Shown here piece after piece: positions 2,994-29,268 of a stretch of 35,286 nt of DNA (position 1 is its first letter; every line of letters begins with the position of its first letter). A program made the translations under genes and the position numbers. Source of the stretch: Caulobacter sp. HMWF025 (GTDB lineage Bacteria; Pseudomonadota; Alphaproteobacteria; Caulobacterales; Caulobacteraceae). Location: NCBI RefSeq assembly GCF_003060965.1, contig NZ_QAII01000065.1:1-35286 (forward strand), written 5' to 3'. Below the pieces are notes generated by a model. That model was not told the DNA's origin and ran no database searches. It saw nothing but the letters and a program-made list of their open reading frames with translations.

Positions 2994-3749
2994 TTGGACT
3001 CCTACGCCACTGCGGCCCAGGTCTATGTCGCCGGTCTCGTCTTCGCACGGGTCGGGGCCATGGTCATGCTGATGCCCGGCATCGGTGACACGGCCGTGCC
3101 GCCGCGCATCCGCCTGTCGTTCGCGCTGCTGATGGCCATGATCCTGACGCCGTTGGTCCAGGCCAGTGTCGGCCGTGTGCCGTCCAGCGTCGGCGGCCTG
3201 GCCGGCCAGGTGATCCACGAGATCCTGATCGGCCTGATGATCGGGGCCGTCCTGCGCCTGTTCTTCACGGCCCTGTCGACGGCCGGTGAAATCGTCTCCA
3301 TGCAGACGACCCTTTCGTTCGCCCAGAGCACCAACCCGTCGATGGGCCAGTCGAGCACGGCGGTGGCGACCTTTCTGTCGATGCTGGGCCTGACCCTGAT
3401 CATGGCCACCGACCTGCACCACCTGTTCATCGGGGCGATCGTCAAGTCGTACGACCTGTTCCCGTTCAGCCGCGCCGTGCCGGTCAATGACGCCGCCACC
3501 CTGGCCCTGCGCACCGTCGCCGACAGCTTCTCGCTGGGCGTGCAGCTGGCTGCGCCGGTCATCGTCTTCTCGCTGGTCTTCAACCTCGCGGTCGGCCTGG
3601 TGGGACGGGTGATGCCGGCCTTCCAGATCTTCTTCGTGGCCTCGCCGCTCAGCGTGATCCTGGGCCTGTCCCTGCTGGCCCTCAGCCTCGGCGGCATCGC
3701 CATGGTCTGGACGGACCGCTATCGCGACCTCCTCTCGGTCTTCAACTAG
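2994..3749 (+). CDS. fliR: Flagellar type III export apparatus protein FliR
   Basis: FliR is the polytopic inner-membrane component of the flagellar export gate. The 251-residue translation has the family length and multiple hydrophobic helices. It contains family-typical segments: MLMPGIGDTAVPPRIRLSFA near residue 25, EILIGLMIGAVLRLFF near 78-93, and the FNLAVGLVGRVMPAFQIFFV region near 195-215. The start is TTG at 2994, supported by AGGGAAGGA about 9 nt upstream; an ATG start would lose the conserved N-terminus. It lies 16 nt after fliQ and 9 nt before flhB, so the three genes are almost certainly co-transcribed. Confidence 0.96.
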   Translation: MDSYATAAQVYVAGLVFARVGAMVMLMPGIGDTAVPPRIRLSFALLMAMILTPLVQASVGRVPSSVGGLAGQVIHEILIGLMIGAVLRLFFTALSTAGEIVSMQTTLSFAQSTNPSMGQSSTAVATFLSMLGLTLIMATDLHHLFIGAIVKSYDLFPFSRAVPVNDAATLALRTVADSFSLGVQLAAPVIVFSLVFNLAVGLVGRVMPAFQIFFVASPLSVILGLSLLALSLGGIAMVWTDRYRDLLSVFN

Positions 3750-24278: not shown

Positions 24279-24390
24279 CTCGCCCCCTCCGGATGCTGCG
24301 CATCCTCCTCCCCCATAGGGGGAAGACAAGGTGCGCGACGGTCCTCTTCCCCCTCTGGGGGAGGAGCGCCGCAGGCGCGGAGGGGGCGAG
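24279..24390. repeat. Palindromic repeat, CCCCCT/AGGGGG family, copy 2
   Basis: Outer arms CTCGCCCCCTCC (24279-24290) and GGAGGGGGCGAG (24379-24390) are perfect mirrors. The interior carries CATAGGGGGAAGAC and TCTTCCCCCTCTGGGGGAGGAGCGCC modules shared with 17478-17535 and 26023-26134. Confidence 0.8.
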
Positions 24391-24533
24391 TGCTCAACGA
24401 GGTGGCAACGTCGCCGCTCATTCGAACAATCAGCCCAAAACCGCGGCCAAACGCCTCCTTCGCAGGCAAAGCCTTGCGCAAGCGCCCTGCCCACGCTACC
24501 TCTAGGCTGCACGCACGGAGCTTCCACCTCACC

Positions 24534-25397: not shown

Positions 25398-26003
25398 ATG
25401 CGCCGCCTTCTTAGACTGATCACTGCCGTTCTGCTGCTGACGGGCCTGCCCGCCCTGGCCGCCACGCCGCCAAAGCCGGCCCCAAAGACCGCGACCGCCG
25501 TCTTCGCGGGCGGCTGCTTCTGGTGCATGGAGCACGACATGCAGGGCGTGCCGGGCGTGCTCAAGGTCGAGAGCGGCTATACCGGCGGCCATGTCGACCG
25601 GCCCACCTATCGCGACGTGACCAGCGAGCGCAGCGGCCACTATGAAGCCGTCCGCGTCACCTATGATCCGGCCAAACTGGACTATGGCTTCCTGCTCTAT
25701 CGCTACTGGAAGCTGGTCGACCCTACCGACGACAGCGGCCAGTTCTGCGACCGGGGCCCGTCCTATCGTCCGGCCGTCTTCGTTGACGGGCCCGCCCAGC
25801 GCGCTCTTGCCGAAAAGTCCCGGGCCGAGGCGGCCAAGCGTCTGAAGACCGGCAAGATGGTCACGCCGGTCCTTGACCTGAAGACCTTCTGGCCAGCCGA
25901 GGAATACCACCGCGACTACGCCAAGCGGAATGCGCTGAACTACCAGGCCTACCGCATGGGCTGCGGTCGCGACCTGCGGCTGAAGCAGGTTTGGGGCGGG
26001 TAA
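25398..26003 (+). CDS. msrA: Periplasmic peptide-methionine (S)-S-oxide reductase
   Basis: MsrA repairs oxidised methionine. A signal peptide (MRRLLRLITAVLLLTGLPALAA) directs this 201-residue form to the periplasm. The active-site motif GCFWC has the catalytic Cys40. Further conserved elements are SGYTGG, HYEAVRVTYDP, and the C-terminal AEEYHRDYAKRN...YRMGCGRD region, where the Cys near residue 192 may resolve the disulfide. The ATG at 25398 gives exactly the signal peptide. MsrB is not fused or adjacent. The gene is 67 nt after the ACT-like pair. Confidence 0.93.
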   Translation: MRRLLRLITAVLLLTGLPALAATPPKPAPKTATAVFAGGCFWCMEHDMQGVPGVLKVESGYTGGHVDRPTYRDVTSERSGHYEAVRVTYDPAKLDYGFLLYRYWKLVDPTDDSGQFCDRGPSYRPAVFVDGPAQRALAEKSRAEAAKRLKTGKMVTPVLDLKTFWPAEEYHRDYAKRNALNYQAYRMGCGRDLRLKQVWGG

Positions 26004-26022
26004 GAGGCGGTGCCGCAATCAC

Positions 26023-26134
26023 TTGCCCCCTCCGCGCCTGCGGCGCTCCTCCCCCTGAGGGGGAAGATGAGGTCCGCGCTTTTCCTCTTCCCCCTCAGGG
26101 GGAAGACGGTCGCGTAGCGACCCGTAGGGGGTCA
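26023..26134. repeat. Palindromic repeat, CCCCCT/AGGGGG family, copy 3
   Basis: TTGCCCCCTCCGCGCCTGCG opens the element, followed by GGCGCTCCTCCCCCTGAGGG and, after a spacer, CTCTTCCCCCTCAGGGGGAA and GCGTAGCGACCCGTAGGGGG. These are the same modules as at 24279-24390 and 17478-17535. Confidence 0.8.
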
Positions 26135-26230
26135 GCGGCTTCTGCCCTACTTCCGAATGCCCCCGCACGACGCGCCTCGACTTCGCCTCATTCCCATATA
26201 GATTTACGATCATAAAATGGGAGATCACCG

Positions 26231-27604
26231 ATGACTCGCCGCGCGCTTCTGACGACCGCCGCTCTGGTTCTGATCGCAGGCCCGGTGCACGCAGCCCAAA
26301 CTGCGCCCGACCTCTCGGTGACCATCTACAATTCCGACCTGGCCCTGGTCGAAGACGCCCGGACCCTGGACCTCAAGGCCGGTCGCCAGAAGCTGGAGTT
26401 CAAGGACGTCTCGGCCGCCATCCGCCCAGAGACCGTCAGCCTGTCGGCCCCCGGCGTCAGCATTGTCGAGCAGAACTTCGACTATGACCTGCTGACCCCC
26501 GACAAGCTGATGGAAAAGGCGGTCGGCCAGCAGGTGAAGATCGTCCGCACCAATCCCGGCGACGGCAAGGAGACCACCGAGGTCGCTACCGTCTTGGCTG
26601 CCAATGAGGGCGTGGTCCTGAAGATCGGTGACCGCATCGAGGTGCTGCGCGACGACGGCGTGCCCACCCGCGTGATCTTCGACAAGGTGCCCGAGACCCT
26701 GCGCGCCCGCCCCACCCTGTCGGTGACCGTCGACGCCGAGAAGGCCGGGCCACGCGGCACCAAGCTCAGCTACCTGACCTCGGGCCTCGGCTGGAAGGCC
26801 GACTATGTGGCCCTGTTTGACGAGAAGAAGCAGGCGTTGGACCTGCAGGGCTGGATCACCCTGACCAACAACTCCGGCACGCCCTTCGAAAACGCCCGCA
26901 CCCAGCTGGTGGCCGGTCAGGTCAACCAGCTGAACAACGGCGGCTATCGCCCGCAGCCGCGCTCCATGGTTTCGGCCGGAACCGAAAGCGGCACCGGCGA
27001 GCGGGTCGCCGACTACTACATCTACCCCCTGCCCCAGCGCACCACGATCGCCGCCAACCAGAACAAGCAGGTCGGCTTCCTGTCGGCCCAGGGCGTGGCG
27101 GCCAAAAAGGTCTATGAGATCCGCGAAGCCTGGTTCGGCAGCGAGGAGAACCCGACCTCCGCCACCGTGGCCATCCAGTTCAGCAATGCAAAGCTGGCGG
27201 GCCTGGGCAGCCAGCTGCCGGCCGGCGTCATGCGGGTCTATATGCGCGACCAGGCCGGTGATCCCAAGTTCATCGGCGAGAACGCCCTGGACCACACTCC
27301 GGCCGGTTCGGAGCTGTCGATCAAGACCGGCGAAGCGTTCGACGTCACCAGCCAGGCCACCCTGGTCAGTCAGGAAAAGGTCTCCAAAACCCGCTCGCGC
27401 TACGAGATGAAATACCTGGTCCGCAATGCTCGGCCGGAGGCCGTGACAGTGGAGCTGCGCCAGGGCGGCCTGTGGCGCGACGGCGAGGTCAGGGCCGAGA
27501 GCCTCAAGAGCCGCCGCATCGACGCCCGCACCCTGGGCTGGAGCGTGCCGGTGCCGGCCAATGGCGAGACGGTGCTGACCTTCACGGTCGAGACAGGCTG
27601 GTGA
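26231..27604 (+). CDS. Exported DUF4139-family protein, copy 1
   Basis: The 457-residue protein has a clean signal peptide (MTRRALLTTAALVLIAGPVHAA) and then a beta-rich body: LSVTIYNSDLALVEDARTLDLKAGRQ, LSYLTSGLGWKADYVALFDE and, near the end, SKTRSRYEMKYLVRNARPEAVTVELRQ. These are DUF4139 features (MuiA/mucoidy-inhibitor-like group, function unknown). It is probably periplasmic. GGGAGATCACCG precedes the ATG. The upstream DNA (26195-26220) is unusually AT-rich for the window and likely holds the promoter. The stop overlaps the GTG of a paralogue (GTGA). Confidence 0.88.
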   Translation: MTRRALLTTAALVLIAGPVHAAQTAPDLSVTIYNSDLALVEDARTLDLKAGRQKLEFKDVSAAIRPETVSLSAPGVSIVEQNFDYDLLTPDKLMEKAVGQQVKIVRTNPGDGKETTEVATVLAANEGVVLKIGDRIEVLRDDGVPTRVIFDKVPETLRARPTLSVTVDAEKAGPRGTKLSYLTSGLGWKADYVALFDEKKQALDLQGWITLTNNSGTPFENARTQLVAGQVNQLNNGGYRPQPRSMVSAGTESGTGERVADYYIYPLPQRTTIAANQNKQVGFLSAQGVAAKKVYEIREAWFGSEENPTSATVAIQFSNAKLAGLGSQLPAGVMRVYMRDQAGDPKFIGENALDHTPAGSELSIKTGEAFDVTSQATLVSQEKVSKTRSRYEMKYLVRNARPEAVTVELRQGGLWRDGEVRAESLKSRRIDARTLGWSVPVPANGETVLTFTVETGW

Positions 27605-29268
27605 GCAGAATATTCCGCTCATCCCCGCGAAAGCGGGGACCCAAGCTGAGGTCGAACGGCCTGCGTCATTGGGGAGCCGCCCTCGCATGGATCCCCGCTT
27701 TCGCGGGGATGAGCGGCTTTGGGGTATCCACCCAGGCCGACACCATTGCCTCATCGGCTCCGGAAAAGCTGTCCATCACCCTCTATCGGGATGGCGACGG
27801 ACCCTTCCAGGCTCTGGACGAATGGCAGCGCGAGGAGGCCCGCGAGAAGGGCCTGATCCTGGTCACCGAGACCCGGACCATGGATCTGCCGGCCGGGCGA
27901 CACACCCTGCGCTTTGACGGCGTTGCCGAGGGTCTGATCCCGCAGAGCGCGGCGGTCGAGGGCCTGCCCGGCCCGGCCGTGGAGCGTAACTATGACTACG
28001 CTCTGCTCAGCCCCGGCACCCTGATCGAACGCTCGCTGGGCCAGCCAATCAAGGTGGTCCGCACGGACCGTCGCACAGGGCACCAGAAGACCGCCGACGC
28101 CGTTCTGATCCAGGGCCCGAGCGGTCTGATGGTCCGCACCGCCGAGGGCGTCGAGGCCCTGGGCTGCTCCGGCGGCCCCGAACGGCTGGTTCTGGCCCGC
28201 GCGCCGGACGGCCTGACCGACAAGCCCAGCCTCTCGACCATCGTCGATGTGCCCGAGCCGATGCGGGCTAAACTGACGGTGTCGTACCTGGCGCTCGGCG
28301 TGAACTGGCAGGCTGACTATGTGGCGCGCATCCATCCGGACGGAAAGCGGCTGGACCTGTCGGGCTGGCTGACCCTGGTCAACAGCGGCGGCAGCCAGTT
28401 CGCCAACGCCCCCGCCCAGGCCGTGGCCGGCAAGCTGGCGCGGGAAGAGGTCGAGGTCAGCCGGGGCGAGGCCAAGGCGATCAGCCGCGCCTGTTGGCCG
28501 ATGGACACGACGCATGTGGGCAAGCGCCTCATGACTCCGCCGATGATAGTGCCCCCGCCATCACCACCCGACATGATGGTGATGGCCCCCGCCCCCATGG
28601 CCCGAGCCGAGGCTGAGGAAATCGTCATCACCGGCGCCCGCGCCAAGCTGGCCGAGCAGTCCGATCTGGGCGACTACAAGCTCTACACCCTGCCCGAGCC
28701 GGTCACGCTCAATCCCCGCCAGACCAAGCAGGTGGCCTTCCTCGACCAGAAGAACGTCGCCTTCCAGCGGCTCTATGTCGTCGGGGTCAATGTCTGGACG
28801 CCCTACCAGGACGACGCCGCCCCGCAGGCACCCGAGGTCGTCCTCCGCCTGGAAAACAAGGCCGCCAACGGCCTGGGCAAGCCCCTGCCCTCAGGAGCCC
28901 TTTCCGCCATGGAGACCGCCGACGGCCGCCCGACCTTTGCCGGCGAACAGGCCGTGCGAGACGTTCCGGTGGGCGAACCGCTGGATCTGGTCATCGGTCG
29001 CGCGATGGACGTGCGGGCCCGCCCTAGGCTCGTTGAACTGAAAGCGTTCAAGAACAACCAGGTTCGCAGCACCTACGAAGTCGACCTGTCGAACGCCAAG
29101 ACCGTTCCGGCAACCTTCGAGATCCGCCAGGACCCGAGCCCGGCCTTCTTCAAGGTTTTGTCTGAGCCCTCCCGACATGACATCCGGCAGGGCCAGGTCG
29201 CGTGGAGAGTCACCCTGGCTCCTGGAGAGACCCGGACATTCCGCTACCGGATCCAGTACGTTGACTGA
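27601..29268 (+). CDS. Exported DUF4139-family protein, copy 2, with repeat-encoded N-terminus
   Basis: Paralogue of the preceding gene (LSITLYRDGDGPFQALDEW; LSYLALGVNWQADYVARIHP), 555 aa from GTG 27601. The GTG overlaps the previous stop (GTGA), favouring it over the far upstream in-frame codons. Residues 5-39 are encoded by a palindromic repeat (27615-27716) and read as a basic n-region (SSPRKRGPKLRSNGLRHW) plus a hydrophobic stretch (GAALAWIPAFAGMSGFGV) ending STQA before the mature domain. A Pro/Met-rich loop (about residues 310-335) leads to EEIVITGARAK at 339-349, which resembles the TonB-box region of TonB-dependent receptors. Function unknown. Confidence 0.82.
   Translation: MSRIFRSSPRKRGPKLRSNGLRHWGAALAWIPAFAGMSGFGVSTQADTIASSAPEKLSITLYRDGDGPFQALDEWQREEAREKGLILVTETRTMDLPAGRHTLRFDGVAEGLIPQSAAVEGLPGPAVERNYDYALLSPGTLIERSLGQPIKVVRTDRRTGHQKTADAVLIQGPSGLMVRTAEGVEALGCSGGPERLVLARAPDGLTDKPSLSTIVDVPEPMRAKLTVSYLALGVNWQADYVARIHPDGKRLDLSGWLTLVNSGGSQFANAPAQAVAGKLAREEVEVSRGEAKAISRACWPMDTTHVGKRLMTPPMIVPPPSPPDMMVMAPAPMARAEAEEIVITGARAKLAEQSDLGDYKLYTLPEPVTLNPRQTKQVAFLDQKNVAFQRLYVVGVNVWTPYQDDAAPQAPEVVLRLENKAANGLGKPLPSGALSAMETADGRPTFAGEQAVRDVPVGEPLDLVIGRAMDVRARPRLVELKAFKNNQVRSTYEVDLSNAKTVPATFEIRQDPSPAFFKVLSEPSRHDIRQGQVAWRVTLAPGETRTFRYRIQYVD
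27615..27716. repeat. Palindromic repeat inside a coding sequence (102 bp)
   Basis: Arms 27615-27639 and 27692-27716 are perfect 25-bp reverse complements, starting CCGCTCATCCCCGCGAAAGC. Each arm contains its own hairpin (CCCCGC, GAAA, GCGGGG). The architecture matches the intergenic elements elsewhere in this window. The element is exactly 34 codons long and has no stop in the reading frame of the DUF4139 gene. Confidence 0.9.

Follow-up and report, generated by a model that had tools for sequence, protein, structure and literature searches.

Palindromic repeats of several classes in the leader of a DUF4139-like Caulobacter protein, probably translated and then discarded

The locus

In a stretch of 35,286 nucleotides from Caulobacter sp. 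HMWF025 (assembly GCF_003060965.1, contig NZ_QAII01000065.1, positions 1 to 35,286 of the forward strand), referred to below as the window, a palindromic repeat lies inside the first codons of a gene for a putatively exported protein. This gene (gene 2) stands in tandem behind a paralogue (gene 1), and the GTG at 27601 with which it begins overlaps the stop codon of gene 1 (GTGA). Both match the Pfam family DUF4139 (PF13598), gene 2 with 27.5 bits (E 3e-6) and gene 1 with 28.0 bits (E 2e-6), and the cut-off of 31.8 is not reached; NCBIfam has no family for gene 1 or gene 2. The two genes thus appear related to DUF4139 yet stay below its cut-off, and the names used here are tentative. The nearest named relatives that have gene 2 are Caulobacter records.

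A preliminary description of this DNA had reported a 102-bp palindrome with perfect 25-bp arms in the N-terminal coding region of gene 2, and such an element is indeed found there (Table 1). An inverted-repeat search pairs 27615-27646 with 27685-27716, that is 32 nt per arm, 94% complementary, with 38 nt between the arms, and the perfect pairing of the outermost 25 bp can be read directly from the sequence. Translation confirms that the palindrome amounts to 34 codons without a stop in the frame of gene 2. Joining its flanks by eye leaves 12 residues ahead of the mature part, in agreement with the dozen or so proposed before, and the signal peptide of gene 1 does look ordinary. The in-frame ATG that had been pointed out within the element exists as well, although it is at 27709 and not at 27708. 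With at most 3 mismatches allowed, the window contains the 20-base motif of the arm twice, versus 0.01 times expected from shuffles.

The element is likely longer than 102 bp, because its other copies often run outward to a C-run / G-run, so this delimitation is probably a few bases too short; in 60 copies, these runs are in register with CTTTGGGG at 27717-27724. The proposed leader of gene 2 ends in T-Q-A before DTIAS, with small residues at positions -3 and -1.

Table 1. Features of the gene pair, of the gene 2 leader and of its palindromic element in the window
Feature	Position	Strand	Basis
Gene 1, DUF4140/DUF4139-like paralogue, ordinary-looking signal peptide, directly upstream of gene 2	26231..27604	+	Open reading frame list, translation, Pfam
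Gene 2, DUF4139-like, GTG start; mature part from about codon 47 (27739)	27601..29268	+	Open reading frame list, translation, Pfam
Gene 2 leader coding region, 46 codons with the element; proposed cleavage after ...STQA, before DTIAS	27601..27738	+	Mature start aligned in 28 orthologues; leader features
Class A palindromic repeat, 102 bp	27615..27716, probably outward to about 27724	+	Inverted repeat; motif in 40/75 genus genomes; 60-copy flank profile
Left arm, perfect 25 nt; in-frame reading is a basic n-region, RSSPRKRG	27615..27639	+	Sequence, translation
Right arm, perfect 25 nt; in-frame reading is uncharged, PAFAGMSG	27692..27716	+	Sequence, translation
Candidate hydrophobic core WGAALAWIPAFAGMSGFGV, mostly element-encoded	27670..27726	+	Translation; 12-residue hydropathy

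Repeats in the leaders of gene 2 orthologues

Gene 2 is present in 38 of 75 genomes of the genus, its own included (E <= 1e-60). The junction between the two genes was fetched from 37 of them, and 28 close orthologues, including that of the window, were compared. Nine distant orthologues (40-47% identity; G092, G016, G085, G064, G081, G078, G074, G013 and G018) were excluded; those of their leaders that were read by eye look short and free of repeats (G074 was mis-parsed). G095, whose gene extends over two contigs, was also excluded, and its junction is an 87% match to a class B leader (L102).

In the gap from the gene 1 stop to the mature start of gene 2, a palindromic repeat is present in 25 of the 28 orthologues and absent from three (G006, G077 and G032), which answers the question of presence or absence that the preliminary description had raised. 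The repeats of these 25 leaders were assigned, by eye and by pattern and without formal clustering, to five classes: A (the kind of the window, 3 leaders), B (9), C (4), D (3) and E (6), of which B and E probably form one superfamily. In 22 of the 28 orthologues the repeat is of a class other than A and stands ahead of a signal-peptide core that has been retained. The leaders measure 45-84 residues when they bear a repeat, versus 20-30 residues when they do not, in which case they look like ordinary signal peptides. Alanine at -1 and an aligned mature start are found in 28/28 orthologues, the pattern being small residue, X, Ala. The RNAs of the 25 repeat-bearing leaders fold at -76 to -158 kcal/mol.

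These results change the earlier account in two respects. The repeat had been taken to have become the signal peptide, but creation of export by the element is not supported, as the three close orthologues that have no repeat possess short, ordinary-looking signal peptides that begin at the same place. It had also been presented as a notable case of domestication, whereas the 22 orthologues with repeats of other classes make it one instance of a site where repeats have landed in frame again and again.

The content of the junction changes between close relatives. On a tree of the mature part, two well-supported pairs of sisters have unlike contents, G020 (class D) with G067 (class B) and G088 (class D) with G006 (no repeat), and a less well supported pair, G082 (class B) with G096 (class C), has unlike classes. 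The fewest changes that the tree allows are 11 for the superfamily (10 without G070) and 21 for the length of the gap between gene 1 stop and mature start (20 without G070). The 46 codons that derive from the repeat do not differ between G007 and G073 (L047, L050), although their mature parts show 134 base differences in 300 codons; this pair suggests that recent insertion or recombination may renew the repeats.

The reading frame of the repeat

The length of the gap is 2 modulo 3 in 27 of the 28 orthologues, that is in all but G070, which places a start at the overlap in frame with the mature part. The choice of the GTGA overlap as the start of gene 2, made in the preliminary description, is upheld by this frame, which was kept over at least 20 changes of length; the chance that 20 free changes would all be made in steps of three is about 3e-10, (1/3)^20. 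The frame of the gene is open from the gene 1 stop in 25/25 repeat-bearing leaders, compared to 4/25 and 12/25 (16/50 altogether) for the other two frames (p 2e-9). For comparison, 66 of 174 frames are open in 29 copies of classes B-E located elsewhere. An in-frame start is found at the stop of gene 1 in 24 of the 25 repeat-bearing orthologues. Within the last 30 codons of the leader there is no ATG, GTG or TTG in 11/25 of them, and in 10/25 the only one is too near the cleavage site, at a distance of 4-15 codons.

The amino acids are not kept in the same way. In 7 pairs of related leaders of the same class, counted without the last 20 codons, the differences at codon positions 1, 2 and 3 number 36/40/46, versus 153/108/499 in the first 300 codons of the mature part (p 3e-9). 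The frame of the leader is kept while its amino acids drift, so that the leader repeat appears to be translated and yet disposable; the simplest reason for this combination is that this part of the leader is cut off, in other words that the repeat is discarded by cleavage.

A second locus

The leader peptide was also looked for in long open frames across the genus, where it occurs in 19 places of at least 300 amino acids, counted by eye. Eighteen of these stretches were fetched, and two of the 18 are the start of a gene for a TPM-domain protein (PF04536); most of the other matches were set aside, by eye, as antisense or untranslated-leader readings. The TPM gene, which follows a gene that we take for lemA, is found in 69 of the 75 genomes, 50 of which were looked at, 47 with a script and the 3 unparsed ones by eye.

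All 47 leaders parsed by the script are open in the frame of the gene. Thirty-six of them fold below -60 kcal/mol. These are open in 36/36 cases (the other frames in 1/36 and 16/36), and in each of the 36 an ATG, GTG or TTG in frame occurs at -4 to +6 relative to the stop of the gene upstream. The remaining 11 fold less strongly and are still open, some of them being remnants. For three of these 11, G020, G067 and G064, the script gave a wrong stop for the upstream gene, and these were re-read by eye. Such reading shows, in G020, G067, G087 and G079, a repeat in an open leader with a TTG at the stop, which brings the open repeat-bearing TPM leaders to 40/40 (36 scripted and 4 by eye), and short leaders in G064 and G010. 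Repeat-free relatives exist at this locus too (G032, G029 and others). The differences at codon positions 1, 2 and 3 in 8 pairs number 43/31/37 in the leader versus 53/40/174 in the mature part.

The class C repeats of the TPM leaders lie, by eye, apparently in the opposite orientation and in another frame than in gene 2, which suggests that the frame is set by the gene and not by the repeat. The TPM leader of the genome of the window (L295, contig C158) holds a different palindrome, TCATCCCGG...CCGGGATGA, so that two exported genes of that genome hold two kinds of repeat.

We also note that many class C repeats of TPM leaders (L281, L278 and others) have CGGGTGAGG at their right end, in place of the CGGGGGAGG of several gene 2 copies. 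The CGGGTGAGG end gives a GTG-Arg just ahead of the hydrophobic core, and it is possible that a repeat end near the core serves as a second start (GTG or ATG) in some TPM leaders.

The repeats outside leaders

The motif of the class A arm, CATCCCCGCGAAAGCGGGGA, is found in inverted pairs at many sites and defines a dispersed Caulobacter repeat. With at most 1 mismatch, its 20 bases occur in 40 of the 75 genomes, with up to 58 matches per strand per genome, which rules out that the element is unique to gene 2 within the genus. The preliminary description had looked to intergenic copies in the same genome: that genome has 3 matches to the arm at the same threshold, and two of these are the window element itself, which leaves one. 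Copies elsewhere have CCG...CGG ends and often, farther out, the C-run / G-run mentioned above (60 paired copies). No target-site duplication, which is a trait of miniature inverted-repeat transposable elements, is evident by eye in the flanks of class A copies (60 profiled, 40 listed), and the plasmid collection gave no match to the element.

As a control, copies of classes B-E were located in two genomes, G096 and G005, with 400 kb sampled from each (800 kb in total), where genes were called crudely from open reading frames (ORFs) and third-position GC content. Of 40 such copies, 37 are intergenic or placed at the ends of genes. The other three are inside long ORFs (UvrD-helicase/addA-like, ribose-phosphate pyrophosphokinase and one unidentified), and they were rejected as artefacts of choosing the longest start, since an ATG follows the repeat in all three. 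Few copies, then, reside in frame, yet such residence recurs at particular junctions.

One of these copies, a class B repeat of G096 (L145:14462-14653), lies ahead of the addA-like gene, and its GGGGGGAGG end is just upstream of the ATG. This end may be the ribosome-binding site of the gene, whose product has the Pfam domains UvrD and PDDEXK; the names addA and addB are our assumption from sequence and neighbourhood.

Other repeats and readings were met in the window. A repeat of class B type occupies 25998-26068, on the minus strand, between gene 1 and a gene that we presume, from its sequence and neighbourhood, to be msrA, and a further fragment of class B type lies at 24345-24415. In seven relatives (L088, L092, L093, L094, L096, L100 and L102), a match to a repeat falls near position 3200, at about the place that corresponds to 25998-26068. 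A minus-strand open frame of 509 codons (26225-27754), antisense to gene 1, reads the palindrome as WVPAFAGM, and it was taken as an artefact of GC-rich DNA.

The class A repeat as a hydrophobic core

In the three class A leaders (G000, G090 and G070), the uncharged stretch comes for the most part from the centre and the right arm of the repeat, and the sequence that follows the repeat is too short for a signal peptide. The best 12-residue Kyte–Doolittle means of these cores are 1.59 (the window), 1.78 and 1.73, compared to 1.97-3.09 in the 25 leaders that are not of class A and to 1.78 and 0.33 in cytosolic controls. Four readings out of 134, which come from the DUF4139 copies, were left out of the test of class A hydropathy. 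Of 81 open readings that other copies give in this frame, only 1 is as hydrophobic, and the cores exceed the median (0.73) of the 35 readings in the same register of the arms, with p 0.004, or 0.015 for G000 and G070 alone. G000 and G090 have a changed base of the inner arm in common and similar centres, and probably derive from one insertion.

The idea that the repeat became the signal peptide therefore holds in part: in class A the element does encode most of the uncharged stretch before the conserved cleavage position, and in most leaders the repeat lengthens a signal peptide that is older. The class A element probably serves as the core, if weakly and perhaps after tuning, and this is the least certain step of the account given below.

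Discussion

We consider it quite probable that the repeat is a translated and discardable insert in the leader of an exported protein. A dispersed palindromic repeat would have been inserted into the signal-peptide coding region of a DUF4139-like protein. Initiation at the GTG that overlaps the gene 1 stop would take ribosomes through the repeat, the peptide of which would become part of a leader that signal peptidase removes, so that the mature protein is unaltered. If the leader is removed in this way, selection would act on the frame and on the absence of stops only, not on the amino acids, and several classes could come and go. In class A, the insertion would have split the old signal peptide, and the centre and right arm of the repeat would now form the hydrophobic core. 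Comparison of genomes shows the location of the repeat, its membership of a dispersed family, the turnover of classes, the kept frame, the neutrality of the amino acids and the recurrence at the TPM gene; from this pattern we infer translation itself, coupled initiation at the overlap, export by Sec and removal by signal peptidase.

Several observations weigh against this reading. Ten of the 25 leaders have a start codon inside the repeat, and in four (G063, G021, G009 and G098, all of class E) a start is found 19-25 codons before the cleavage site, so that class E, taken alone, may use a later start. G070 is one base out of frame and has no in-frame start at the overlap; one base is missing in an arm, and since its gene is also cut short later, an assembly error is likely behind the break. 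On the tree, support is good for 13 of the 25 inner branches, and three forks are left unresolved; this uncertainty and the kinship of the rows weaken the p values, which are guides only, and do not change the direction of the 3e-10 result. As regards the core, no other leader among the 28 scores as low as that of the window, whose value is also exceeded by the best stretch of the cytosolic PheT within its first 60 residues (1.78). Last, among 175 signal-peptide-like ORFs of the 800 kb sample, 11 have no nearby start and none is clearly a leader repeat, so that such inserts are not a general rule for exported genes.

A wider view, which we put forward tentatively as something a little short of an even bet, is that mobile palindromes have a safe harbour within coding DNA in the cleavable leaders of exported genes that are translationally coupled. 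Removal of the leader would amount to excision at the level of the protein, in a role like that of an intein or an intron elsewhere; insertions would have to preserve the frame, since translation would begin at the stop of the gene before; the site would be reoccupied repeatedly, and occasionally a repeat would become the core.

It might be instead that the class A repeat is truly domesticated, that is selected as a targeting signal with its centre tuned to be hydrophobic. The p values of the class A cores agree with this, as does the register of the arms, which is by eye the sole one that gives a basic left arm and an uncharged right arm. We find it rather unlikely nevertheless: there are two or three cases only, given the probable single origin of G000 and G090, all other leaders among the 28 are more hydrophobic than those of class A, and relatives without a repeat have an ordinary-looking signal peptide, which suggests that the function predates the repeat.

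Selection could also bear on the hairpin of the mRNA, for instance for the stability of the gene 1 message or for coupling, the frame being kept through coupling that tolerates no spacer. All 25 leaders fold strongly despite the differences in sequence between classes, and 36 TPM leaders do likewise, but the repeat families are palindromic in any case and relatives without a repeat exist at both loci, so that we regard this explanation as unlikely.

That the repeat is effectively intergenic, with the true start of gene 2 inside or after it (at ATG 27709, for example) and an open frame that is an accident of GC-rich DNA, is very improbable: most sampled copies elsewhere do lie outside genes, the G096 copy directly precedes the ATG of the addA-like gene and some leaders have the internal or late starts listed above, but an accidental frame was rejected in view of its conservation on the tree and of openness in 25/25 versus 16/50 frames, 8 of 25 orthologues have starts at the overlap only, ATG 27709 would leave just MSGFGVSTQA ahead of the cleavage site, and the TPM locus repeats the pattern.

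Known systems and significance

Palindromic elements fused in frame in genes have been described in Rickettsia (Rickettsia palindromic elements, RPEs), according to the available text of one study (PMC2229807). The translated insert proposed here is like an RPE, by description and not by sequence, in being a dispersed palindrome in frame in a conserved protein gene, as the frame and stop tests indicate; the difference is that several classes replace each other at one spot of a leader in free-living Caulobacter. The same study, in its available text, reports CerM-associated intergenic repeats (CIRs), about 110 bp in size with long inverted repeats and abundant in Caulobacter, which carry GANTC and stops in all six frames and are not found intragenically (PMC2229807). 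On the contrary, GANTC is absent from 24 of the 25 leader elements, that of the window included, and occurs once, in G067, and the leader elements are open in the gene frame in 25/25 cases.

The idea of a signal peptide supplied by a small repeat has already appeared in print: in Yersinia, YPO1552 has a YPAL/RU-2 element, and the signal sequences of its relatives are unrelated to the element (Delihas 2007, PMC2759123). The available text of that study deals with one gene and one element, by prediction only, and holds no test of turnover, frame or neutrality. In the open-licence literature, we found no report of different repeats that recur in one leader with a kept frame and neutral amino acids. 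The leaders resemble substrates of Sec and signal peptidase I in their basic n-region, uncharged stretch, small residues at -3 and -1 and conserved mature start, with the cleavage being predicted; they differ from usual signal peptides in their length when a repeat is present.

Leaders of this kind are open to mis-annotation, because the repeat looks intergenic and the start lies at the stop of the previous gene. The two loci offer a natural series (no repeat, several classes, two genes, dozens of species) in which the tolerance of sequence ahead of a signal peptide could be followed, and a clear genomic context for mobile palindromes that reside within coding DNA at apparently little cost. 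If the class A leader does export its protein, then the core of a signal peptide can arise from a repeat.

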